A stretch of DNA of 49,846 bases from an uncultured Prevotellaceae bacterium. Its GTDB lineage: Bacteria; Bacteroidota; Bacteroidia; Bacteroidales; Muribaculaceae. The notes below the pieces were generated by a model. The model was not told where the DNA came from. It saw nothing but the letters and a program-made list of their open reading frames with translations, and made no database searches. Each line of letters opens with the position of its first letter. The stretch's first letter is position 1. This document shows positions 1,924 to 47,513 of this stretch, piece after piece. Both the position numbers and the translations under genes were made by a program. Location: assembly GCA_900318535.1 (NCBI GenBank), contig ONKU01000024.1:1-49846 (forward strand). Direction: 5' to 3'.

Positions 1924-3575
1924 CTAATGATAAAAACTATGAAGAAATTCAATCTGACTCTGCCATTAACGACGTCGTTATCTATTATCGTGAACACGAT
2001 AATAAAGTGTTACTTAAGCGCTCATTGATAGCAAAAGGATGCACTGAAGAAGTTATTGGCAATCTTGATGAAGCGGTAAAGAGTTTCCACCAAGCTGAAA
2101 AAATATCTATAAAAGATGATGCTGAAAATGATGCCTATGTTAAATTGAGACTTGCAGACTTATATCAATCCCAACTGATGGCGTCAGACTCAATCGCAAT
2201 TCAGAAATATCAAGAAGCACTAAGATTGTATCGTATCATTCAAGATAAACATTATCAAATTGTTTGTCTGGGAGAAATTGGAGGTCTTTATAGTGACATA
2301 CCCAGTAAATCGGATAGTGCTCTGTTTTATATAGAATCGGCCATTCAGTTGGCAGAGGAGACTCAAGATAATTACTTTATATTCGCTAATTATTATAGTA
2401 AATCGCTTTACTTCCTTAATGTTGTCGGTGATGCCAAGAGAGCAAAAGAGTCCGCTCTTAGGGCGATTTCATTTGAAAACGAAATTGACCATCCCAGAGC
2501 ACATTATTGTTTGTGTTCCGCATACCTGCGTTTAAATTGTATTGATTCTGCCAATTATTATTTGAATTGCGCACCAGCCCCTTCTAGTACAATGGATAGC
2601 GTTTCATATCTTAATCTTATGTCTGAGATTGAAGATTACAACCATAACGAGAAAATATCACGAACATATTTTTTAAGATCTAATTCTTTAGCCGATTCTA
2701 TCCTCATTAATGGGTTGGGCCACCGTCTATTGGAAATAGAGAAAAAATATGATATGCAACAAATAGAATTGAACAATGTATCTCTTCGTTCAAAATTAAG
2801 GGGTACTTGGCTATTTGTCGCATTAGTGTTACTTGTTGCTGGCACGCTATTCCATTTTGCATGGAGAAACCGCAAGAGGCTGAAAACTAAGGAAAACGAA
2901 TTAAACCTATTAAAAGATGAACTGAATTCATCATTGCTAAGTCTGGAACAGTTACAAAAAGCCATTAGCTTACACGAGGAGACATTGAAAAATACAGAGG
3001 CTGACTATCGTACCCAATTAGCGCAACAGGAAGCATTAGTTTCAGGTTTTACAGATGAAATAGTTGGTTTCAAATCATCTCTTCAAATTAAAGAGGATGA
3101 ACAGATGCAATTGAATAAACAACTTGCTGTTTTACAGGCAAAAAAAGGAAGATATGATGGCATTATGCCCATACTTGATGAACAGATCCAAGTAATTCAA
3201 GAACTTATTCATTCATCACATGAATTGGACAACAAAAGATTTGCAGATAAGTTTAACTTATTGATGACTGTTCCCGATAACAAAAGAGTTACAACCTATT
3301 GGACAAATCTACATGCACTGACGAATGATATTTATGGCAACATACTTGATAAGGCTCAAGAGCTTGCTAAAGGTCGACTCAGCATGAATGAATTAAGCCT
3401 CATTGCTTTATTATGCTTTGGTTACACCCGAACCGCTATAATGATTTGCCTGAAGTATAAACATGTTGCGACAATTTCAAACATGAAATACGCAATCGCA
3501 AGAAAAATGGGTGTTCCATTCCTTGATGATTTCATCCGCCCCTATCAAGAAGAATACAGAAATTCACTGAAATAG
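1917..3575 (+). CDS. TPR / transmembrane / coiled-coil regulator, 5' end removed by the IS
   Basis: Seen: 552 codons, AT-rich. Residues about 35-275 are helical tetratricopeptide-like repeats. A membrane helix follows at about 296-314 (GTWLFVALVLLVAGTLFHFAW), then a coiled coil to about 405 and a C-terminal helical domain (LSMNELSLIALLCFGYTRTAIMICLKYK) that looks like a helix-turn-helix. Known: Bacteroidales have many TPR-TM-coiled-coil-HTH one-component regulators that start with a lipoprotein or signal sequence. Here the only available start is a GTG inside the IS right repeat, and no signal sequence or first TPR is present. Inference: truncated at the N-terminus by the IS and probably non-functional as a sensor, although the cytoplasmic effector half is intact. 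The neighbours give no clear target. Confidence 0.75.
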   Translation: MDTNDKNYEEIQSDSAINDVVIYYREHDNKVLLKRSLIAKGCTEEVIGNLDEAVKSFHQAEKISIKDDAENDAYVKLRLADLYQSQLMASDSIAIQKYQEALRLYRIIQDKHYQIVCLGEIGGLYSDIPSKSDSALFYIESAIQLAEETQDNYFIFANYYSKSLYFLNVVGDAKRAKESALRAISFENEIDHPRAHYCLCSAYLRLNCIDSANYYLNCAPAPSSTMDSVSYLNLMSEIEDYNHNEKISRTYFLRSNSLADSILINGLGHRLLEIEKKYDMQQIELNNVSLRSKLRGTWLFVALVLLVAGTLFHFAWRNRKRLKTKENELNLLKDELNSSLLSLEQLQKAISLHEETLKNTEADYRTQLAQQEALVSGFTDEIVGFKSSLQIKEDEQMQLNKQLAVLQAKKGRYDGIMPILDEQIQVIQELIHSSHELDNKRFADKFNLLMTVPDNKRVTTYWTNLHALTNDIYGNILDKAQELAKGRLSMNELSLIALLCFGYTRTAIMICLKYKHVATISNMKYAIARKMGVPFLDDFIRPYQEEYRNSLK

Positions 3576-3912
3576 CTATTTCAAGTAATATGATTGTTGT
3601 TTTAATATGCCTGTGAGGACTCGAATATTCTTAATTATCGCAACTTCCGGCATAACACAGGTATGCTTATAGTAAATGTATCTCCATCAATCTTCAATTC
3701 TGTGCTACCTTGTACTTCCTCTATAAAAGGAAACCAATTGCCCTGCAAAGCAATAATTTGATAATCTTTATTATCGAGAAACCGGAAATGATTACTAAAT
3801 TTGCGACAAAACTTGTGCAAGTCGAACTCAAACTAGTTTGCTGAATATGATGAGATGCTGCCAAGTTTATCCAAAAATTGCTAACGAATAACGAAATCTC
3901 AAACAATAGCTT
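3576..3912. other. Gene-poor stretch with a possible decayed ORF
   Basis: A 337-bp AT-rich gap. The only thing with any protein character is a minus-strand frame at 3635-3820 (61 codons), whose end YQIIALQGNWFPFIEEV...LKIDGDTFTISIPVL alternates like beta strands. I do not recognise it. It could be the last piece of a deleted gene. No terminator or clear promoter was found before the reductase gene at 3913. Confidence 0.3.
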
Positions 3913-4452
3913 ATGAAAAGGATTCTATTCATTATCGGTTCATTAAGGAAAAAGTCCTTCAACCGCCAGTTGGCTATAATGGCCAAGGAAATCATCTGCA
4001 ACCGTGCCGAGGTGTCTGAACTCGATTACAGTGACCTGCCGTTGCTGAATCAGGACATCGAGCAACCAGAGCCCGCTGCCATTGCCCGTATCCGCAAGAC
4101 CGTCAGCGAGGCCGATGCGCTTTGGATTTTCACGCCCGAATACAATTCCAGTTATCCTAGCCATCTGAAGAACCTGCTCGACTGGCTCTCCCGTCCTGTC
4201 ATACCTCTGGACTATGGGACGCCTACCTGCATTAACGGCAAACGTGTCGCTGTCAGTGGTGCGGGCGGTAAAGCAGCCACTGCCAACTGTCGCGCCAAAC
4301 TCACCGAACTGCTCACCTTCATCAAGGCCGATGTGCTGGCAGAGCAGACAGGCATCGCTGTTCCTGCTGAGGCATGGGGAACGGATGTCCTTACCCTCAC
4401 CGATGAGCAGAAAGCCCAATTAAGCACCCAAGCAAATGCATTAATCGGATAA
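3913..4452 (+). CDS. NAD(P)H-dependent FMN reductase family protein
   Basis: Predicted cytoplasmic flavodoxin-fold oxidoreductase that uses bound FMN to reduce quinones, azo compounds or similar acceptors with NAD(P)H. The 179 residues match the family length. The FMN phosphate loop is GSLRKKSFNR near the N-terminus, and the family signature PEYNSSYPSHLKNLLDWLSR is at about residues 75-95. A glycine-rich SGAGGKAA follows at about 114, where the isoalloxazine ring binds. The lipocalin gene follows after 3 bp, so the two are probably co-transcribed. Base composition is visibly richer in G+C than the flanking accessory genes, like the core genes later in the window. The in vivo substrate cannot be told. 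Confidence 0.88.
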   Translation: MKRILFIIGSLRKKSFNRQLAIMAKEIICNRAEVSELDYSDLPLLNQDIEQPEPAAIARIRKTVSEADALWIFTPEYNSSYPSHLKNLLDWLSRPVIPLDYGTPTCINGKRVAVSGAGGKAATANCRAKLTELLTFIKADVLAEQTGIAVPAEAWGTDVLTLTDEQKAQLSTQANALIG

Positions 4453-4455
4453 GCG

Positions 4456-4956
4456 ATGAAGACCACGGCTTTTTTCACAAGGATTCACGGTTGGTTGACA
4501 GGCACCCGACTGACAGTAGATAACTCGGTGGTAAAAGATCTTGACTTCAACCGCTTTGCAGGGAGTTGGTACGAAGTAGCCCGCTTTGACCATTTTTTCG
4601 AGCGTGGCATGTCGTACACCAAGGCCAACTATGTGATTCGTGAAGACGTTCATATCGACGTTATCAACACCGGCATTAAGAACGGCAAGCCCAAGACGGC
4701 CAAGGGCAAAGCAAAGCAGACGGATATTCCTTCCTTGTTGCGAGTATCCTTCTTCGGTCCTTTCTACTCTGACTATCGCGTATTGCTGCTTGATGCCGAC
4801 TACCAGTATGTTCTCATTGGCAGCGGCTCAGACAACTATCTTTGGATTCTCTCCCGCACGCCCCTCCTCTCTGAAGAGGCCAAAACGAAAATTCTCTCCG
4901 AGGCTCAACGTCGAGGATACGATACAGATAAGCTCATTTGGGTGACACAGGAGTAG
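4456..4956 (+). CDS. Bacterial lipocalin (Blc-like)
   Basis: A 166-residue beta-barrel binding protein for lipids or other hydrophobic ligands. The lipocalin GxW motif is in FAGSWYEVARFDHFFERG (about residues 34-51). The family-typical RVSFFGPFYSDYRVLLLDADYQYVLIGSGSDNYLWILSRTP fills the centre, and the C-terminal helix ends in LIWVTQE. Most Blc proteins are outer-membrane lipoproteins, but here the N-terminus (MKTTAFFTRIHGWLTG) has no lipobox cysteine and no clear signal peptide. It may therefore be cytoplasmic, or the 5' end may have been altered. It lies 3 bp after the FMN reductase gene, which suggests a two-gene oxidative or membrane-repair unit (inference). Confidence 0.88.
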   Translation: MKTTAFFTRIHGWLTGTRLTVDNSVVKDLDFNRFAGSWYEVARFDHFFERGMSYTKANYVIREDVHIDVINTGIKNGKPKTAKGKAKQTDIPSLLRVSFFGPFYSDYRVLLLDADYQYVLIGSGSDNYLWILSRTPLLSEEAKTKILSEAQRRGYDTDKLIWVTQE

Positions 4957-4982
4957 AAAGGGAATCCCAAACATTGGACTAT

Positions 4983-5351
4983 ATGGAGAAACTAGGTAGC
5001 GGACTTACACGTATCTGCAATGAGACCAAAGCATTGGAAGGATATAAAGAGGAACTGAAGCCTGCGTTCAAATCTACTCCGGCCCAATTTCAGACTATTC
5101 TCTATGTCGCTGCCGACACACAGAATGTCGGAGACCATGACGGAGACGGGTCGGAGACGAAACTCACTGAGCGTCAGCATAAAATACTCAATCTTATCAA
5201 AGAATCTCCGACAATCACCGGCAAACAAATGTCGGAGACTTTGTCGGTGAGTCAACGCACCATCGAACGTGACCTTTCTGCTTTACAGAAGAAAGGTGTT
5301 CTGAAGCATGAAGGCAAGGACAATGATGGAGTGTGGGTGCTTAACACATAA
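4983..5351 (+). pseudogene. C-terminal fragment of an AlbA_2/RecG-like HATPase_c_4 helix-turn-helix protein
   Basis: Seen: DYMEKLGSGLTRICNETKALEGY at the start, then KPAFKSTPAQFQTILYV, then a winged-helix segment (KLTERQHKILNLIKESPTITGKQMSETLSVSQRTIERDLSALQKKGVLKHEG). Known: this is the normal C-terminal third of Bacteroidales Schlafen/AlbA_2-type transcriptional regulators, where the Y-x-E-K-x-G-S/T-G motif follows the HATPase_c_4 region. The N-terminal AlbA_2 domain is missing, and the frame upstream runs straight into the end of the lipocalin gene. Inference: a deletion fused the remnant here. The winged helix could still be expressed from ATG 4983 but is unlikely to have its normal role. 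Confidence 0.65.
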
Positions 5352-5640
5352 TCATTCCCTAAAGCCAAAGCAATGTATACCTAAACAGACAACATACCAT
5401 ATAAGAAGAGTTCTTGAATACAGTGAGACTTTCAAAGATGCCTCCCCCATTGATATACCTGCTACATTAAAACTCTATGATCGTAATACACTTCTTCTAA
5501 TGGAGGCTATTCTTATACTCAATTATGGTAATATGCATGTTCCTAATAATGAACGATCACTCTTCTCTGATTGTAGCAAGAAACATATACCTCATATAAA
5601 TGTACTCTTTCAGTCATATTGTCATCTACATAAAGAATAA
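5308..5640 (+). CDS. Unrecognised ORF, possible remnant
   Basis: 110 codons, AT-rich, overlapping the previous fragment in another frame. The first 25 residues lie in that overlap and are probably not real. From about residue 28 (TTYHIRRVLEYSETFKDA) to the end (HINVLFQSYCHLHKE) the composition is protein-like, but there is no start codon in that part and no motif I know. It is best read as the tail of a gene whose front was lost in the same rearrangement as its neighbour, or as chance. Confidence 0.25.
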   Translation: MKARTMMECGCLTHNHSLKPKQCIPKQTTYHIRRVLEYSETFKDASPIDIPATLKLYDRNTLLLMEAILILNYGNMHVPNNERSLFSDCSKKHIPHINVLFQSYCHLHKE

Positions 5641-13332: not shown

Positions 13333-13472
13333 CCACGACATTTTGCAATTATTTTGTCCAAAATGACACTTCAAGCCCTTGTTTTAACTAATTTTTAAAG
13401 TGCTAAAGATTAACTAACACTTCCGCCCCACCCCCTAAGTACATCTCAAAGGGAAAAAAGAGTAACTTTGTG

Positions 13473-13555
13473 GTCCCGTCTGTTGCGTTGTCAACGCAAC
13501 AAACAAGCAACGCAACAAACAAGCAACGCAACAAACAAGCAACGCAACAAACAAG
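13473..13555. repeat. REP-like palindrome followed by a 16-bp tandem repeat
   Basis: Seen: a 32-bp block (13473-13504) contains a perfect palindrome with arms TGTTGCGTTG and CAACGCAACA around a single T (13481-13501). From 13493 the unit AACGCAACAAACAAGC is repeated four times in tandem (the last copy lacks one base). The 32-bp block occurs again, identically, at 14001-14032 inside the RAYT gene. The array ends 22 bp before the RAYT start codon. Known: RAYT transposases sit next to the palindromes they process. Confidence 0.85.
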
Positions 13556-13577
13556 AACCGATTACCACTCACTCCCA

Positions 13578-14639
13578 ATGAAAAAAGAGACCTACAAAGC
13601 ACAACAGCCCTTTGCTGGAGAGAAAAAGCCCTCCATGCTTCGTCGCTGCGTGGGTCATGATTACACAGGGCGTCAGATTTACATGATCACAATGGTAACC
13701 GAGGGGCGGCGCCAGCTCTTCGGGCAAGTGGTGGGCAAGAGCGATGCGCCAGCTGGCAGCGACGATGCGCCCCGCATCGAGCTGTCACCACTCGGTCAGC
13801 GCGTGAGCGACGAGTGGTGGGCGGCCTCTCATCACCATCCCGAGGTCAAAGTCCTCGCCCTGCAGATGATGCCCGACCACCTGCACGGCATCCTGTTTGT
13901 TCAAGAACAGATGGAGAAGCCCCTGGGGATGCTCCTGCGCGGCTTCAAGCAGAGCTGCAACCGCCACTACCGCGAGCTGGTGCTCGGCATCACCTCGCCC
14001 GTCCCGTCTGTTGCGTTGTCAACGCAACAAACTCGACAAGCACCCGTTAAGACGGACCGCCGCAACGAGGACCGCTCCCACGGCATGCTCTTTGCCCGCG
14101 GCTATAATGACAAACTGCTGCTGCGTGAAGGCCAACTGGAAACCTGGATTCATTACCTCAACGACAACCCCCGCCGCCTGTTGATGAAACGCGAGCATCC
14201 CGACCTGTTTCGTGTCCAGCGTAACGTCGAGGCTGCCGGGATGACCTTCTCGGCCATCGGCAACCGCTTCCTGCTCGACCGTCCCGTGCGCCTGCAGGTG
14301 CAATGCTCACGCCGCCTGAGTGAAGCCGAGATCCAAGAGCAGGTCGCACACTTCCTGACAGCAGCTCGTCAAGGAGCCGTGCTAGTGTCACCCGCCATCT
14401 CACCTGGCGAGAAAGCCGTCATGCGTGCCGCATTCAACGAGGGACTCCCGCTCATCTATCTGCAGGAAAACGGTTTCACCGACCTGGCAAGGCCCGGTGG
14501 CAAGCGAATGGAAGCCTGTGCCCACGGCCAACTGCTCATCCTCGCCCCATGGGAACACCACAACGAGCAAATGACCATCAGACGTAGCCAATGCCTCAAA
14601 CTCAACGACATCGCCCGCCTGCTAACGGCTGTTCCTTGA
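13578..14639 (+). CDS. REP-associated tyrosine (RAYT/Y1) transposase with extra C-terminal domain
   Basis: 353 residues from the ATG at 13578; the frame upstream only translates the repeats. The HUH motif is HLH at residues 101-103 in LQMMPDHLHGILFV, and the likely catalytic tyrosine is Tyr131 in GFKQSCNRHYREL. Known: Y1 single-strand transposases nick palindromic REP sequences. Residues 142-152 (VPSVALSTQQT) are encoded by an in-frame copy of the palindrome block. After the Y1 domain (to about 215) comes a second domain of about 140 residues with a Rossmann-like pattern (QGAVLVSPAISPGEKAVMRAA... LPLIYLQENGF) that recalls DprA/SLOG folds (inference). G+C-rich like the core, so the gene is probably long resident. 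Confidence 0.85.
   Translation: MKKETYKAQQPFAGEKKPSMLRRCVGHDYTGRQIYMITMVTEGRRQLFGQVVGKSDAPAGSDDAPRIELSPLGQRVSDEWWAASHHHPEVKVLALQMMPDHLHGILFVQEQMEKPLGMLLRGFKQSCNRHYRELVLGITSPVPSVALSTQQTRQAPVKTDRRNEDRSHGMLFARGYNDKLLLREGQLETWIHYLNDNPRRLLMKREHPDLFRVQRNVEAAGMTFSAIGNRFLLDRPVRLQVQCSRRLSEAEIQEQVAHFLTAARQGAVLVSPAISPGEKAVMRAAFNEGLPLIYLQENGFTDLARPGGKRMEACAHGQLLILAPWEHHNEQMTIRRSQCLKLNDIARLLTAVP
14001..14032. repeat. Second copy of the REP-like block, inside the RAYT coding frame
   Basis: All 32 bases are identical to 13473-13504, including the 10-1-10 palindrome (14009-14029). It begins on a codon boundary and adds residues VPSVALSTQQT without a frameshift. The spacing to the first copy is 528 bp, a multiple of three. 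Confidence 0.9.
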
Positions 14640-14665: not shown

Positions 14666-14694
14666 TGCAGTCTTTTCATCCAATATGGCATCAT
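14666..14694 (+). promoter_or_regulatory. Putative ECF-sigma promoter of the sigma-barrel gene
   Basis: TGCAGTCTTTT, nine bases, then TGGCATCAT. The same arrangement (identical first block, identical spacing, one base different in the second block) occurs at 16405-16433 before the next gene. The position implies transcription starting near 14700, so the gene should start at 14719 or 14725, not at the earlier ATG 14659. Autoregulation is inferred. Confidence 0.6.
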
Positions 14695-14718: not shown

Positions 14719-16386
14719 ATGGACATGGAGCGTGTCATCGGGGCAGCTCTGGCTGGTGACCAACAGGCTATCGCCAAGCTCTATAATGCGTATTCCCACA
14801 AGGTATTGGGTATATGCTATAACGTTGTGGGCAACCGTGCCGTGGCCGAGGAATTGTCCCATGACGCCTTTGTGCTTGCTTTCTCCAAACTGGATCATCT
14901 GCGAAACCCTGAACGTTTTGACGCTTGGCTGTCAAGCATTGCGGCCAACGTGGCGTTGCGCTACAAGCAACGACATCATACGTTGGTCACGGTCCCTGTT
15001 GATGACATGCCAGATGAGAGCAGGATTGAAGATGAGCCCTCGGACATGCCGACGATGGCCGAAATCATGGCAGCGGTAAATGCCTTACCCAACGGTTATG
15101 GCAAGGTGTTCAAGATGGCTGTCATGCAGGATATGTCGCACAAGGAAATCGGTGAAATCCTGGGCATTGCCGCCCATTCCTCGTCATCGCAACTGGCACG
15201 CGCCAAGAAGATGTTGCAGCATTCGTTGGCCAAATATTGGGCTATCATCCTGCTTGCGTTGCTCACGCCCCTGGCCTTGCTACTCCTGCGCCAGCCCAAG
15301 AGAATCGTTGAGCAGCCCAAGACGGCTGAGACGAACGAGCCTGCTGTCACTGAAGGCAATCCACAAGTGACCGAGCCCGACAAACAGCAGCGCAAAGAAA
15401 GCCGCAACATGGCCATCACTGTCCCCGAAAAATACAAGCAGCCAAATGTGAGCATCACAGACACGGCTCAGCATGAGGAAGTTCCAAGACAGATGGTTGA
15501 CACGACAACTGTTCCTGTTGAAAATGCACTGCCTCATCTCAAACTGAATGGCGGCATCCACTTTGCAAACGTCGGTCAAGGCACCACCATCCGGCCCAAG
15601 AGAGACGATTTCAAGCGCTGGTCAGCTGATTTGGCCTACACGGGGCAACCATCCCCAGAGTCAGATAGGATAATTCCTCAAAACTTCATCGTCACCGATT
15701 ATACAGCACCAAGCGTTCCAGGAGAGCCAGATCCCACCTTATCGATTGACAACTGGACCGATTACATCAATTACCTCAATGAGTGCAGCGAAATCTTTGG
15801 TGAACTGCCTGAAAAGGAACTCATCATGCGCAAGATTGCATTGAGCAACGAGCCGCTGAACAATGGCCAGATCGTGCGCAAGACTCACCACAGCCTACCG
15901 CTGACTTTTTCCTTGTCACTGAGATATCAAGCCAACAAGAGAATCGGACTGGAGAGCGGCCTCCAGTACACAAGACTCAACTCACTGTTCCAAACGGGTG
16001 AAGGCATCAACCGCATCGATGAGAAACAGCGCATCGATTACCTGGGCGTGCCGTTGAGAGCCTCTTATCGTATTTGGAGCGGCAAGCATGTGGGCATCTA
16101 TACCTCGGCTGGTGTGACGCTGGAGATTCCAGTCAAGTCAACAGTTTCGACAGAATATATCTTGAACAACCAGCCAGAACTGCGCGACAGTCATCATCTG
16201 GATGTGCCGCTGCAATGGTCAACGGGCATTGGAATAGGTGTTCAGTACAATATCACTCCCAGCATCAGCATCTTTGCAGAGCCTGGCGTACAGTACTATA
16301 TCCCTGATGGCAGCGGCTTTGAGACCTACCGCACACAGCATCCGTTCACCATCACGATTCCTGCCGGCTTGCGATTCACGTGGTAG
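14719..16386 (+). CDS. Fusion: ECF sigma factor - membrane helix - outer-membrane beta-barrel
   Basis: Seen in one uninterrupted frame of 555 residues (ATG 14725 is an alternative start). Sigma region 2 is at about 6-83 (AIAKLYNAYSHKVLGICYNVVGNRAVAEELSHDAFVLAFSKL). Sigma region 4 is at about 112-168 (VNALPNGYGKVFKMAVMQDMSHKEIGEILGI...QLARAKKML). A membrane helix is at about 172-190 (KYWAIILLALLTPLALLLL), then a polar linker to about 390. An eight-strand-like barrel at about 392-555 starts SLPLTFSLSLRYQANKRIGLESGLQYTRL and ends in FTITIPAGLRFTW with terminal aromatic. Known: in Bacteroidales an ECF sigma gene is often followed by a separate inner-membrane/barrel protein ending in just this way. 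Here they form one chain, which would put sigma in the cytoplasm and the barrel in the outer membrane. Inference: signal transfer across the envelope or proteolytic release of sigma. A lost stop codon is the simple alternative. Confidence 0.85.
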   Translation: MDMERVIGAALAGDQQAIAKLYNAYSHKVLGICYNVVGNRAVAEELSHDAFVLAFSKLDHLRNPERFDAWLSSIAANVALRYKQRHHTLVTVPVDDMPDESRIEDEPSDMPTMAEIMAAVNALPNGYGKVFKMAVMQDMSHKEIGEILGIAAHSSSSQLARAKKMLQHSLAKYWAIILLALLTPLALLLLRQPKRIVEQPKTAETNEPAVTEGNPQVTEPDKQQRKESRNMAITVPEKYKQPNVSITDTAQHEEVPRQMVDTTTVPVENALPHLKLNGGIHFANVGQGTTIRPKRDDFKRWSADLAYTGQPSPESDRIIPQNFIVTDYTAPSVPGEPDPTLSIDNWTDYINYLNECSEIFGELPEKELIMRKIALSNEPLNNGQIVRKTHHSLPLTFSLSLRYQANKRIGLESGLQYTRLNSLFQTGEGINRIDEKQRIDYLGVPLRASYRIWSGKHVGIYTSAGVTLEIPVKSTVSTEYILNNQPELRDSHHLDVPLQWSTGIGIGVQYNITPSISIFAEPGVQYYIPDGSGFETYRTQHPFTITIPAGLRFTW

Positions 16387-16404: not shown

Positions 16405-16433
16405 TGCAGTCTTTTATCGCCTTGTGGTATCAT
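16405..16433 (+). promoter_or_regulatory. Matching putative ECF-sigma promoter before the dockerin-tailed secreted protein
   Basis: TGCAGTCTTTT (16405-16415), nine bases, TGGTATCAT (16425-16433): same blocks and spacing as 14666-14694. It lies 51 bp before the ATG at 16485. It does not resemble the housekeeping TTTG/TAnnTTTG pattern. Confidence 0.6.
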
Positions 16434-16484: not shown

Positions 16485-17294
16485 ATGATGAAAAGAAGCA
16501 TTCTGTTAGTAGCCCTTGCCTTGTTGGCGGTGTCACAGGTTGCGGCAAACGAGTACATGTATACGCCTTTTGTACGAGAGGGTGTGAAGTGGGTTTACTA
16601 TTATGTCAATGAGGATGGTTTCTATCCGGCTGACACCGCATTGGGAAAAGGCAAAGTCTATATGAACCTTGAATTCAAGGGCGATACCGTCATCAACGGA
16701 CTCACCTACAAAGCCATGCACAAGTACCATGGCGGTGCCATTAACGCCAATAATGACACAGTGCCTATCTACATGCGTGAGAAGGACAAGATTGTATACG
16801 CGATAGTGCCAGACGGCAAAGTATATCCCGATTGCCCTATCGGCAACTCCTATTCACCCGACATTTATGACCTCATCAGTGAAGGCAAGGAGTTTATCTT
16901 ATATGATTTCAATGATCCCGTAGCCTATTGGGATAGACTTGTAAACCAATCAGGTTATGATGACCAGTATCAGCATTGTTACACAGACACTATAGCACTT
17001 GGCACTCATCTGGCCAAACAATATGTTGGAAACCTATGGGGTGACTTCCGCATGATTGAGGGTGTGGGCATCGATGCATTATCAAGTTACACACTTGATT
17101 TCTTCATGGTGTTGCCAACGGGTTACAGTACCTATTTTGGCCTGAGCCATGTTGTCGAAGGCGGTGAAATAGTCTATAAGGGACAAAAGTTTGACGAGAG
17201 CATACTGGAAAACAAGCGTGGTGATGTCAACGGGGATGGTGAAGTCAGCATCTCAGATGTCACAACCTTGATTGATATCTTGCTGGGACGTTAA
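16485..17294 (+). CDS. Secreted protein with C-terminal dockerin-like calcium repeat
   Basis: 269 residues; the second ATG (16488) is equally possible. The signal peptide MKRSILLVALALLAVSQVAA is cleaved before NEYMYTPF. The body is beta-rich with a repeated theme seen in Bacteroidales surface proteins (FVREGVKWVYYYVNEDGF... FKGDTVINGLTYKAMHKY... MREKDKIVYAIVPDG). The C-terminus RGDVNGDGEVSISDVTTLID is a single dockerin type I-like calcium loop plus helix. No enzyme motif is visible. It has a promoter like that of the sigma-barrel fusion, so it is the most likely member of that regulon. Inference: a surface or secreted protein made in response to the fusion's signal. Confidence 0.75.
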   Translation: MMKRSILLVALALLAVSQVAANEYMYTPFVREGVKWVYYYVNEDGFYPADTALGKGKVYMNLEFKGDTVINGLTYKAMHKYHGGAINANNDTVPIYMREKDKIVYAIVPDGKVYPDCPIGNSYSPDIYDLISEGKEFILYDFNDPVAYWDRLVNQSGYDDQYQHCYTDTIALGTHLAKQYVGNLWGDFRMIEGVGIDALSSYTLDFFMVLPTGYSTYFGLSHVVEGGEIVYKGQKFDESILENKRGDVNGDGEVSISDVTTLIDILLGR

Positions 17295-17343
17295 ATCCTC
17301 CACAATAGCACGATAACACTGTTTTATCGCACTTTCTATGCAG

Positions 17344-17400
17344 TCCTTGGTGGTTTGGTGGAATCTCAACTTGTAGAAAACCAAACCACCAAGGATTTTT
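17344..17400 (+). terminator. Strong hairpin-plus-T-run abutting the next start codon
   Basis: The perfect 16-bp stem TCCTTGGTGGTTTGGT (17344-17359) / ACCAAACCACCAAGGA (17380-17395) has a 20-base loop followed directly by TTTTT and then the ATG at 17401. As a terminator it ends the 16485 gene. Its contact with the start codon is unusual and could mean attenuation, or that the next gene starts later. Confidence 0.85.
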
Positions 17401-18420
17401 ATGTACAAACTGACGGATTACCTTTTCAACGGGCTATTGTATGCCAACAACATGGCACGGCCACGGCACAAGCGGCTGAGCCAACTGATGATTTATGCCA
17501 CAACGGCATGCCAGTCACATTGCAAGCACTGCAACATCTGGCAGAAAAAGCGTGAACACCTGTCGCTCGACGACATCAGGCACATCATGCAGAGCCGCTG
17601 CATCACGAGCAGGACAACCGTCGGGCTAGAAGGCGGCGAATTCATCCTGCATCCTCAAGCCGATGAAATCATGGCATGGTTTCATGAGCACCACCCCAAC
17701 TACACCCTGCTCACTAACGGTCTTGCTCCACAACGTGTCATACAGTCCGTGAGGCGCCACCGTCCTCGTCACCTGTATATCTCACTCGATGGAGACAAGA
17801 AGACCTACAAGAGAATGCGCGGCTGCGACGGCTATGACAAGGCGATTGAAGTCGTTGAGACATTGAAGGACGAGGTACCGCTGTCGCTCATGTTCTGCCT
17901 GTCGCCGTGGAACTCGTTCAACGACATGGAGCATGCCATCAACGTGGCCTTGCATAATGGCATTGACGTGCGCATCGGTATCTATGGCACGATGGCGTTC
18001 TTTGATACCACGAGCGAGCTGATTGAGGCGACCGATTTTGTGGGCCGTATTCCCTCTAACATCCACAAGACACAAGAGAACTATGACTTTGTAGCACTTT
18101 ATGACCAATGGCGGAGTGGCAACCTGCGACTTCGGTGTCAAAGCATCATGAGCAGCCAAAATCTTGATGTCAAGTTAGGCAACATCCACGACCAATCACT
18201 GGACGAAATCTTCAACGGTCATGACAGTGCGCTCACTCAGTGCCGATACTCCAAGCAGTGCAACGGCTGCTGGATTAACTTCCACCGCAAGTATGACATC
18301 ATCCTGATGCGCAACCTTGAACGCTTCATACCCAAACAGATAATTGAACGATTCTATGGTCCTTATCAATGGTGCAACAATCCCAAATTCACTTATCGCA
18401 AACATCTTCAATCATCATGA
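17401..18420 (+). CDS. Radical SAM protein with SPASM-like C-terminal cysteines
   Basis: 339 residues. The [4Fe-4S] motif is CX3CX2C in TTACQSHCKHCNIW (Cys37, 41, 44). It is followed by the GGE-type SAM-binding segment GLEGGEFILHPQADEI and strand LTNGLAP, then YISLDGDKKTYKRMRG. The C-terminal third has further cysteines (LRLRCQ..., TQCRYSKQCNGCWINF) as in SPASM/Twitch domains that hold a second cluster. It is predicted to make radicals for modification of a peptide or small molecule; the substrate is unknown. The next gene overlaps its stop by 4 bp (ATGA). Met18 (17452) is an alternative start, worth noting because a terminator touches the first ATG. Confidence 0.85.
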   Translation: MYKLTDYLFNGLLYANNMARPRHKRLSQLMIYATTACQSHCKHCNIWQKKREHLSLDDIRHIMQSRCITSRTTVGLEGGEFILHPQADEIMAWFHEHHPNYTLLTNGLAPQRVIQSVRRHRPRHLYISLDGDKKTYKRMRGCDGYDKAIEVVETLKDEVPLSLMFCLSPWNSFNDMEHAINVALHNGIDVRIGIYGTMAFFDTTSELIEATDFVGRIPSNIHKTQENYDFVALYDQWRSGNLRLRCQSIMSSQNLDVKLGNIHDQSLDEIFNGHDSALTQCRYSKQCNGCWINFHRKYDIILMRNLERFIPKQIIERFYGPYQWCNNPKFTYRKHLQSS

Positions 18421-19445
18421 TACAACAACTCATTAACCGCTATAAGCGCATGCGCACCGAGCGCTATCTGAATCAAACCTACAAGTGTCAATATGCCTTC
18501 GTCGGCATGGGACAGCACAGCCTGACCAACCTCTATCCTGTGCTCCATTACCTGCAAGTACCGTTGAAATACATCTGCGTGACCAATGAACGTAAAGCAC
18601 GGCTCATCGAGCAAAAATTTAAAGGAATAAAAGCCACCACCAGGCTTGATGACATACTTAATGATGAAGACGTGAAGGGCGTCCTGGTCGCGACATCGCC
18701 TAATGCTCATTTCTCCATCGCTTCACAAGTATTGCAAAGCGGCAAATCTTTATTTATCGAGAAGCCGCCATGCCAGTCATTAGAACAATTGCAGGAACTT
18801 ATCAAGTTACAACGAGAATTCGGTTCACGGGTAGTGATGGTTGGACTTCAACAACGCTACGCACCAGCTGTCCAGATAATCAAGCGCCGATTGAAAGGGG
18901 AACAACTACTCAACTATGACCTGCACTATCTCACGGGGGCTTATCCCGAGGGCAATGCCCTGATCGACTTGTACATCCACCCGATAGACCTGGCCACATG
19001 GCTGTTTGGTAAGGCCGAAATCGTTTCCTATTTAGAGATTGATAAACAATCCTATATCCTGATGCTTCGGCACCAACACATTGTCGGCACGATAGAGTTG
19101 TCCACCTGCCACTGCTGGCAAGACGCGCGACAGTCACTCACTGTCCACACCCGCTCAGGCAGCTATCACCTGGCCCAATGCGAAGAGTTGAGTTTTGTTT
19201 CCAAACAGGCTGTCATCGCAGGCGTTCCCATCGAGAAACTTCTTCCTCGCCGTCAATCGGTCGAATGCCTGTACCGTCACAACGGTTTCTCCCCTACCAT
19301 TGTCAACAACTCCATCTACACTCAAGGCTTTTTTCAAGAGGTCTACACCTTTGTCAACGCCGTTGAAGGGAAAAAGAAAAGCATTTTGACCGACCTCCAA
19401 TCCGTCAAACCCACACTAAAACTGATAGACGACATCATGGGATAA
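18417..19445 (+). CDS. Gfo/Idh/MocA-family NAD(P)-dependent oxidoreductase
   Basis: 342 residues from the ATG overlapping the radical SAM stop. A short N-terminal helix is followed by a Rossmann fold (CQYAFVGMGQHSLTNLYPVLHYL; the usual GxGxxG is altered to GMGQHS). Then come VLVATSPNAHFSIASQVLQSGKSLFIEKPPCQS with the family EKP motif, and the C-terminal alpha/beta substrate domain with the conserved DLYIHPIDLATWLFG (HxxD). Known: these enzymes oxidise or reduce sugars, sugar nucleotides or inositols. Coupling to a radical SAM enzyme suggests a two-step modification of a sugar-like or peptide-bound substrate (inference). The 3' end meets guanine deaminase tail to tail. Confidence 0.87.
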   Translation: MIQQLINRYKRMRTERYLNQTYKCQYAFVGMGQHSLTNLYPVLHYLQVPLKYICVTNERKARLIEQKFKGIKATTRLDDILNDEDVKGVLVATSPNAHFSIASQVLQSGKSLFIEKPPCQSLEQLQELIKLQREFGSRVVMVGLQQRYAPAVQIIKRRLKGEQLLNYDLHYLTGAYPEGNALIDLYIHPIDLATWLFGKAEIVSYLEIDKQSYILMLRHQHIVGTIELSTCHCWQDARQSLTVHTRSGSYHLAQCEELSFVSKQAVIAGVPIEKLLPRRQSVECLYRHNGFSPTIVNNSIYTQGFFQEVYTFVNAVEGKKKSILTDLQSVKPTLKLIDDIMG

Positions 19446-46922: not shown

Positions 46923-47513
46923 TCAGAGCGTGAGCACGATGTTGTGCTCCTCGGCCAGGCGGCGCATGTTCAGGATAGCATAGCGCATGCGTCCCAGCGC
47001 CGTGTTGATGCTCACGCCGGTGGTGTCGGCAATCTCCTTGAAGCTCATGTTCTTGTAGTAACGCATCACCAGCACCTGGCGCTGGCTGGCGGGCAGCGTC
47101 CTGATCAGGCGGCGCACGTCGGTATGGATCTGCGAGGCCACCATGTCGTCCTCGATAGTCGACTGGGAGAGCTCTTTGCGGTTCAGGATGTTGGATTCGT
47201 CATCGTCGGTCGACTGCAGGTTCTCGTTCTTCACCTGCCTGAAGTAGTCGATAATCAGGTTGTGTGCAATGCGGCTTACCCATGCGGCAAAATGGCCGTT
47301 CTCGACGTAACGTCCCTGCTTGATGGTAGTGATGGCTTTGACAAAGGTGTCCTGGAACAGGTCATTGGCCAAGTCCTCGTTTTTCACCGAGTGATATATA
47401 TACATGAATATTCGGTCCTTGTGACGCTCCAGGAGCTCATCAAAGGCCTCGTTCTTGCCATCGACATATAGCGATATCAGTTGGTCATCGCTCTTGTCCT
47501 TCAATAACTTCAT
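46923..47513 (-). CDS. ECF-type RNA polymerase sigma factor
   Basis: 196 residues. Region 2: LISLYVDGKNEAFDELLERHKDRIFMYIYHSVKNEDLANDLFQDTFVKAITTIKQGRY... FAAWVSRIAHNLIIDYFRQ. Region 4: LIRTLPASQRQVLVMRYYKNMSFKEIADTTGVSINTALGRMRYAILNMRRL. No anti-sigma gene is adjacent. I recognise this type as a widespread Bacteroidales sigma of the RpoE-like class encoded near tig/clp genes. A TATATTTG -7-like element at 47631-47638 lies about 118 bp upstream. Targets unknown. Confidence 0.93.
   Translation of the reverse strand: MKLLKDKSDDQLISLYVDGKNEAFDELLERHKDRIFMYIYHSVKNEDLANDLFQDTFVKAITTIKQGRYVENGHFAAWVSRIAHNLIIDYFRQVKNENLQSTDDDESNILNRKELSQSTIEDDMVASQIHTDVRRLIRTLPASQRQVLVMRYYKNMSFKEIADTTGVSINTALGRMRYAILNMRRLAEEHNIVLTL

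Follow-up and report, generated by a model that had tools for sequence, protein, structure and literature searches.

A Dma3-type regulator joining an ECF sigma factor to an outer-membrane barrel in uncultured Bacteroidales, and its candidate promoter

The fused gene and its neighborhood

The stretch of DNA analyzed here (the window; 49,846 nt; contig ONKU01000024.1 of assembly GCA_900318535.1) belongs to an uncultured Prevotellaceae bacterium. It includes a gene whose product combines an ECF sigma factor, an inner-membrane helix, a tether, and an outer-membrane β-barrel (Table 1). An earlier, sequence-only reading described one continuous frame of 555 codons with sigma regions 2 and 4, a single hydrophobic helix (residues 172 to 190), and a barrel with a terminal aromatic residue. 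All of these features were borne out: the frame extends from the ATG at 14719 to the stop codon at 16384 to 16386 (555 residues), Pfam matched both sigma regions, the helix was recovered, and the barrel matched OMP_b-brl above the cutoff (residues 396 to 521) in a chain ending in W555. The linker of roughly 200 residues in that reading was too long, because the disordered tether comprises only residues 191 to 295 and the barrel domain begins at about residue 301.

Table 1. Features of the fused locus (positions are those of the window)
Feature	Positions	Strand	Remarks
Promoter-like element 1, TGCAGTCTTT..GGCATC	14666..14692	+	Ends 26 nt before the ATG of the fused gene
Fused gene, ECF sigma + membrane helix + tether + outer-membrane barrel (Dma3-type)	14719..16386	+	555 aa, stop included
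Sigma region 2, residues 21-86	14779..14976	+	Pfam Sigma70_r2, above cutoff
Sigma region 4, residues 115-166	15061..15216	+	Pfam Sigma70_r4_2, above cutoff
Inner-membrane helix, residues 172-190, mid-helix proline	15232..15288	+	Hydrophobicity, structure model
Disordered periplasmic tether, residues 191-295 (about 105 aa)	15289..15603	+	pLDDT under 50
Outer-membrane beta-barrel domain, OmpA-like, residues 301-554	15619..16380	+	Pfam, structure model, fold neighbors
Promoter-like element 2, TGCAGTCTTT..GGTATC	16405..16431	+	18 nt past the fused stop, before the dockerin-like gene
Secreted-looking protein, weak C-terminal dockerin match	16485..17294	+	Dockerin_1, 20.7 bits, below the cutoff of 22.9
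Promoter-like element 3, TGCAGTCCTT..GGAATC	17339..17365	+	Before the radical SAM gene; one mismatch
Inverted repeat in the radical SAM leader	17342..17397	+	Arms 17342-17359 and 17380-17397; 5' arm in promoter spacer
Radical SAM protein	17401..18420	+	Same-strand downstream neighbor in 27/87 loci
GFO/IDH/MocA oxidoreductase	18417..19445	+	Overlaps the radical SAM gene (ATGA); same-strand downstream in 27/87 loci

Structure prediction, which the reading had proposed, was carried out with AlphaFold2 on 51 fused sequences (mean pLDDT, 75.5) and gave sigma2, sigma4, a helix at residues 152 to 190, disorder at 191 to 295, and a barrel at 301 to 554. In this predicted model (block pLDDT, about 65 to 84), residues 152 to 190 form one continuous helix that carries the last helix of sigma4 into the transmembrane segment (TM). 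An earlier model based on 13 sequences was poorer (mean pLDDT, 64.4), with the helix broken at residues 171 to 174. The fold neighbors of the model were SigW, AlgU, and RpoE for the sigma half and OmpA and other small barrels for the barrel half. Among the best 25 of 86 NCBIfam families matched by the chain, the ECF superfamily model alone was above its cutoff.

Scanning the source genome for sigma region 2 resulted in 11 matches, the sole other one on this contig being at 47232 to 47435; the fused gene thus has no separate cognate sigma gene adjoining it. A longer frame starting at ATG 14659 is unlikely because the conserved promoter-like element at 14666 to 14692 falls within it, and this 5' block is found again, as a promoter-like element, in other clades. 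The gene upstream (13470 to 14639) looks like a REP-associated tyrosine transposase; its protein cluster was found upstream in 9 of 87 loci. Median dN/dS values against 15 near relatives were 0.08 for sigma2, 0.02 for sigma4, 0.11 for the TM, 0.31 for the tether, and 0.06 for the barrel core. These ratios indicate purifying selection all along the chain, loosest in the tether.

Distribution and origin of the fused form

The reading had proposed a search for homologs of the same architecture, and such homologs were found. In a profile scan of named genomes, the frame was intact from the match start in 72 of 77 loci. Of the remaining five, L034, L035, and L071 are interrupted, L081 is truncated by the end of its contig, and L029 retains a frame of 515 aa with both ends present. 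The proposal that one chain must span the distance from cytoplasm to outer membrane was upheld, and the chain is conserved in other species. According to their titles, the 77 loci come from metagenome-assembled or uncultured Bacteroidales, many of them from ruminants; judging by its relatives, the source bacterium is one of animal guts.

Six apparently long common open frames (in G141, G435, G468, G393, G345, and G359) proved on reading to be separate sigma and Dma genes, so only frames that were read, or single alignments without stops, were counted as fused. Among 60 relatives searched, 12 of 36 congeners had a full-length match without stops and 2 more had an interrupted one; none of the matches listed for the 24 genomes of other families was full length. 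In the family of a Prevotella-titled locus, at least 36 of 201 genomes had a single near-full-length alignment without stops (counted from alignments, with seven candidates scored per genome). In the presumed Bacteroides genus, 15 of 158 genomes were matched at an E value of 1e-38; intact fused frames were read in ten of these, three were interrupted, and two were listed by sigma only. A phylum-wide draw of 296 genomes (four candidates scored per genome) resulted in two matches at 1e-60, both from Bacteroidales and one of them an interrupted copy. The fused clade is widespread in Bacteroidales.

Interrupted relatives, which may reflect decay or assembly error, comprised L034 and L035 (on contigs of G021 and G024), L071, L182, and L205 when listed by locus and included copies in G288, G567, and G360 when listed by genome. 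Some genomes carry two fused genes (L180/L181 in G487, L142/L143 in G257, and L137/L144 in G284). In G487, one has a methyltransferase gene downstream and the other has the radical SAM pair; in G284, the L144 frame (3523 to 5472) contains unread residues (X) near its end, over the barrel end.

The sequence-only reading stated that related Bacteroidales encode sigma and barrel separately. This holds, but both forms can share one genome: the source genome also carries a separate sigma/Dma pair (L146, 3253 to 4960), as do other genomes searched. We compared 96 distinct fused frames with 34 such pairs. The Dma N termini mostly have about 40 to 60 cytoplasmic residues before the TM, with a W-motif in 28 of 34. 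This motif, the mark of the anti-sigma segment, was found in 0 of the 96 fused chains; the fused forms lack an anti-sigma segment of the Dma1/Dma2 type, as far as the sequences tell. The gap between the end of the sigma match and the TM in fused chains had a median of 1 residue (range, −3 to 9). The lengths C-terminal of the TM were alike (medians, 367 for fused and 351 for Dma). In 94 of 96 fused chains, the flank of the TM facing sigma had the higher net charge, a bias that places sigma inside. A proline was present in the TM of 79 of the 96 fused chains versus 0 of the 34 Dma proteins (related sequences counted).

Trees of the sigma and barrel domains were constructed from 49 fused sequences (thinned from the 96) and the 34 pairs. 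In each tree, a single branch set the fused sequences apart from the pairs (SH-aLRT, 100 for sigma and 95 for barrel). When 25 of the fused sequences were analyzed with the pairs and 7 other ECF sigma factors of the source genome, the fused forms and the pairs grouped on the same side against the other ECFs (SH-aLRT: fused, 97; other ECFs, 95; pairs, 47). Inside the fused clade, the sigma and barrel trees disagree. We consider it very probable that the chain is a Dma3-type regulator, one half of which matches an ECF sigma factor and the other a Dma protein minus its anti-sigma segment, one old fusion being the simplest account. More than one fusion origin, or the splitting of an older fusion, would be compatible with the trees; neither tree needs several independent fusions.

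A candidate promoter, neighboring genes, and leader hairpins

The upstream flanks of fused genes, otherwise unrelated, have in common a block starting TGCAGTCTTT, which corresponds to a predicted ECF-type promoter, TGCAGTC followed about 17 nt on by ATC or GAC. Of 95 fused genes, 72 had TGCAGTC within 130 nt upstream of the start and 23 did not; elsewhere in the loci, the background was 0.014 per 130 nt. With the pattern relaxed to TGCAG[TC][AC], it was present in 86 of 95 and missing in 9. TGCAGTC also occurred within 300 nt after the fused stop in 68 of 93 loci (missing in 25), lying 16 to 18 or 3 to 5 nt past the stop codon in 63 of 69 cases. Where both sites were readable, the −10 triplet was identical at the upstream and post-stop sites in 55 of 55 loci (45 ATC and 10 GAC), a match for which the shuffle ignores kinship, most GAC users being one clade in the sigma tree. 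Sigma residues as the basis of the choice between ATC and GAC were indistinguishable from clade history. In eight fused genes (L082, L083, L087, L089, L092, L096, L009, and L138), TGCAGCA with GTC replaces TGCAGTC with ATC or GAC.

At the genome scale, the strict pattern had 4 matches in the source genome (reversed-pattern control, 2), 2 at the fused locus and 2 within other open frames. A looser pattern had 7 matches (control, 1), four of which sit outside the fused locus; the 27-base layout occurred only in elements 1 to 3. In ten other genomes with fused genes, 17 strict matches were found (control, 2), of which 15 flank fused genes and 2 lie elsewhere; two of the ten genomes had no strict match. 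Allowing one mismatch, the window contains 3 copies of the 10-mer versus 3.84 expected from shuffles, each placed ahead of one of three consecutive gene units in the fused locus. For the 10-mer, only placement and conservation appear telling; frequency does not.

We surveyed the neighbors of 87 loci (86 distinct fused proteins). The commonest same-strand downstream genes were the radical SAM and oxidoreductase genes, which adjoin and overlap (27 loci each), followed by a methyltransferase (25 loci; 22 distinct proteins) and a second methyltransferase-like family (MT2, named from its sequence; 7 loci); relatives of the dockerin-like gene were present in 9 of 87 loci, the window included. The promoter element was found near the start of every dockerin-like (9 of 9) and lipoprotein-like (8 of 8) gene, as well as of 25 of 27 radical SAM and 21 of 25 methyltransferase genes. 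It was found in 2 of 5 and 0 of 3 members of two further families (clusters 15 and 29, respectively). None of the 27 oxidoreductase genes, which come directly after the radical SAM gene, had the element near its start, and none of the 7 MT2 genes had TGCAGTC there. The fused clade using TGCAGCA with GTC (8 rows) partly overlaps the MT2 loci.

Among the separate sigma/Dma pairs, GCAGTATT with a −10 element of CATTT or ATTTA was found in 17 of 34, which is a lower bound because some pair starts are misplaced; TGCAGTC was found in 1 of 34. GCAGTATT was found in only 2 of 96 fused genes. With CATTT or ATTTA, it is a candidate promoter for Das-type sigma factors (L157, L158, L161-L163, L168, L169, L172-L175, L177-L179, and others). 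The TGCAGTC promoter appears to be related to, yet distinct from, that of the separate pairs. The layout of the elements is as expected of an autoregulated ECF sigma factor with a tiny local regulon. In all likelihood, then, the fused sigma factor is active and reads a dedicated promoter found both at its own gene and at the gene or genes that follow, with autoregulation and a very small local regulon; this prediction draws on motif conservation and placement.

The leaders of two enzyme genes contain a further element. The bases immediately preceding the start codon are complementary to the promoter spacer, with z scores below −2 in 18 of 19 radical SAM and 12 of 16 methyltransferase leaders; these counts leave out an alignment of 21 leaders, in which the clades are in different register. 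The two genes are unrelated, yet both leaders carry this spacer-to-start inverted repeat, and the sequences of the arms differ between clades (leaders in L021-L097 and L181). The hairpin is not a general feature of the promoter: scores below −2 were obtained for 2 of 59 of the fused genes' own leaders and 0 of 5 lipoprotein-like leaders. The 4 of 9 dockerin leaders below −2 are doubtful. Because transcripts initiated at the promoter are expected to begin downstream of the left arm, the hairpin would form only in read-through RNA. We take it to insulate the enzyme against read-through; the T-run after the hairpin in the window would also fit a terminator.

Proposed mechanism and comparison with known systems

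The reading had suggested direct outer-membrane-to-RNA polymerase signaling or proteolytic release of sigma, which are sensible options for a sigma chain that bridges both membranes. On balance, we favor a one-chain, autoregulated switch leading from the outer membrane to a promoter, probably activated by proteolytic release. At rest, the barrel would lie in the outer membrane, with the tether crossing the periplasm and the TM holding sigma at the inner face; as the last helix of sigma4 is predicted to run straight into the membrane, sigma would probably be unable to reach promoter DNA within RNA polymerase. A signal at the outer membrane (i.e., ligand binding to the barrel, damage to or misassembly of the barrel, or a change in membrane spacing) could lead first to a cut in the tether and then to one within the TM, which usually contains a proline, thereby freeing sigma. 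Free sigma would transcribe more of the fused regulator and the neighboring genes for SAM-dependent enzymes, and newly made full-length regulator would reset the switch. We infer sequestration by the membrane helix and sensing by the barrel from this architecture. The TM proline (79 of 96) would suit an intramembrane protease and is suggestive, although it is not required, because 17 of 96 fused TMs lack one. For the mode of activation taken by itself, we give proteolytic release about the same weight as all other ways together.

The main rival, which we consider unlikely, is that sigma acts while anchored: RNA polymerase and promoter DNA would come to the membrane, and the barrel would alter the shape or access of sigma with no cleavage. 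The protease site is hypothetical, and the 17 TMs without proline fit this alternative; moreover, the locus is its own main predicted target, so promoter DNA would stay near the anchored protein. Membrane-bound activators such as CadC or ToxR have a flexible linker. The fused chain offers no such linker, as the sigma match and the TM are separated by a median of 1 residue and the sigma4 helix is predicted to be continuous with the TM. Still less probable is a precursor that is always cut, with sigma and barrel as two working proteins and the fusion only setting their ratio. Such a precursor would agree with the similarly low dN/dS of sigma and barrel core around a looser tether (0.31) and with the disagreement of the two domain trees inside the fused clade. 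However, the frame, the TM, and the post-TM length are kept across the clade, and cut sigma would need another anti-sigma factor, none of which was recognized among the neighbors scanned.

We regard as slightly more improbable again that sigma is held by its tether together with an anti-sigma factor from another Dma protein of the same cell. The presence of a separate sigma/Dma pair in the source genome is consistent with this alternative, as is the upregulation of dma3 in both dma1 and dma2 mutants of Bacteroides thetaiotaomicron described in the available text of PMC13088901. The promoters differ, however (GCAGTATT with CATTT or ATTTA in half of the pairs at least, and GCAGTATT in very few fused genes). 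An assembly artifact, for which the reading had named a missed stop or a lack of other fused genomes as signs, or a decaying functionless fusion, would find some agreement in a few interrupted relatives (G021, G024, L071, G288, G567, and G360) but is in the main refuted by the 72 of 77 intact loci, the low dN/dS that marks purifying selection along the chain, and the conserved promoter elements.

A more far-reaching view of the chain is tentative, and we hold it to be somewhat less probable than its negation. In this view, a promoter-reading domain would extend as a single helix into the inner membrane and be joined, within the same chain, to an outer-membrane sensor, without any anti-sigma part; its regulon would comprise little beyond its own gene and the following gene for a SAM-dependent enzyme, and leader hairpins would block read-through expression, such that the enzyme is made only from sigma's own promoter. 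If the release model is true, few routes known to us would lead more directly from the cell surface to RNA polymerase, and the chain would offer a dedicated sigma/promoter pair for gut Bacteroidales. The comparison supplies a widespread clade, a candidate promoter, and a short list of candidate targets; with these candidates in hand, the role of an outer-membrane-tied sigma factor is reachable by a simple reporter experiment.

The founding paper of the family, the 2024 PNAS study of Dma1, reportedly names Dma3. The literature searched, which excluded that paper and the EcfO paper (either may report a promoter), yielded no account of the promoter, regulon, fused clade, target genes, missing anti-sigma segment, or hairpins. 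The promoter motif in the part of PMC12596196 available concerns SigW-1 and SigH-1.

The sequence-only reading knew of no described system of this kind, which was mistaken. Dma3 of B. thetaiotaomicron is described, in the portion of PMC13088901 (2026) available, as a Dual Membrane-spanning Anti-sigma protein whose N-terminal domain is its own sigma factor; its locus, bt_2778-2779, has no separate ECF21 sigma gene beside it. According to the same text, dma1 and dma2 mutants remain hypervesiculating when dma3 is deleted. BT2778, annotated as a sigma-70 family factor, rises 2.3-fold under iron depletion (PMC10434189, Table 5, in the part available), which is a possible lead to the signal. Compared by description only, the window chain resembles Dma3 in its N-terminal sigma in the same chain, single TM, long disordered tether, and C-terminal barrel. 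Dma3 forms a two-gene locus, and a fused gene with a methyltransferase gene likewise occurs in several presumed Bacteroides genomes. Downstream of the fused gene in the window lie the dockerin-like, radical SAM, and oxidoreductase genes. The kind is thus already known, and, by the published description of Dma3, the window chain is a new member in another lineage.

The two-gene relatives, as described in the available parts of PMC13088901 and PMC9308784, are Dma1/Das1 and Dma2/Das2 of B. thetaiotaomicron and the barrel-bearing anti-sigma factor M0N98_03760 of Phocaeicola vulgatus. They share with the fused chain a TM, a periplasm-spanning stretch, a C-terminal barrel, and an ECF sigma factor. 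By the same descriptions, they differ in comprising two genes and in having an N-terminal anti-sigma segment before the TM. The P. vulgatus relative answers envelope stress (PMC9308784), and the separate pairs of the genomes searched have a related promoter starting TGCAGT.

A likeness in another direction is provided by IutY of Pseudomonas putida (ECF243) and by ECF52/53, in which sigma is likewise fused to a membrane-anchored C-terminal extension; they differ in that an anti-sigma part is present and no outer-membrane barrel is described in the portion of PMC8999054 available. In that account, IutY answers aerobactin within a cell-surface signaling system, and its fused sigma/anti-sigma chain is cut by Prc and RseP in regulated intramembrane proteolysis. 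IutY therefore provides a precedent that a membrane-tied sigma factor can be freed by proteolysis.
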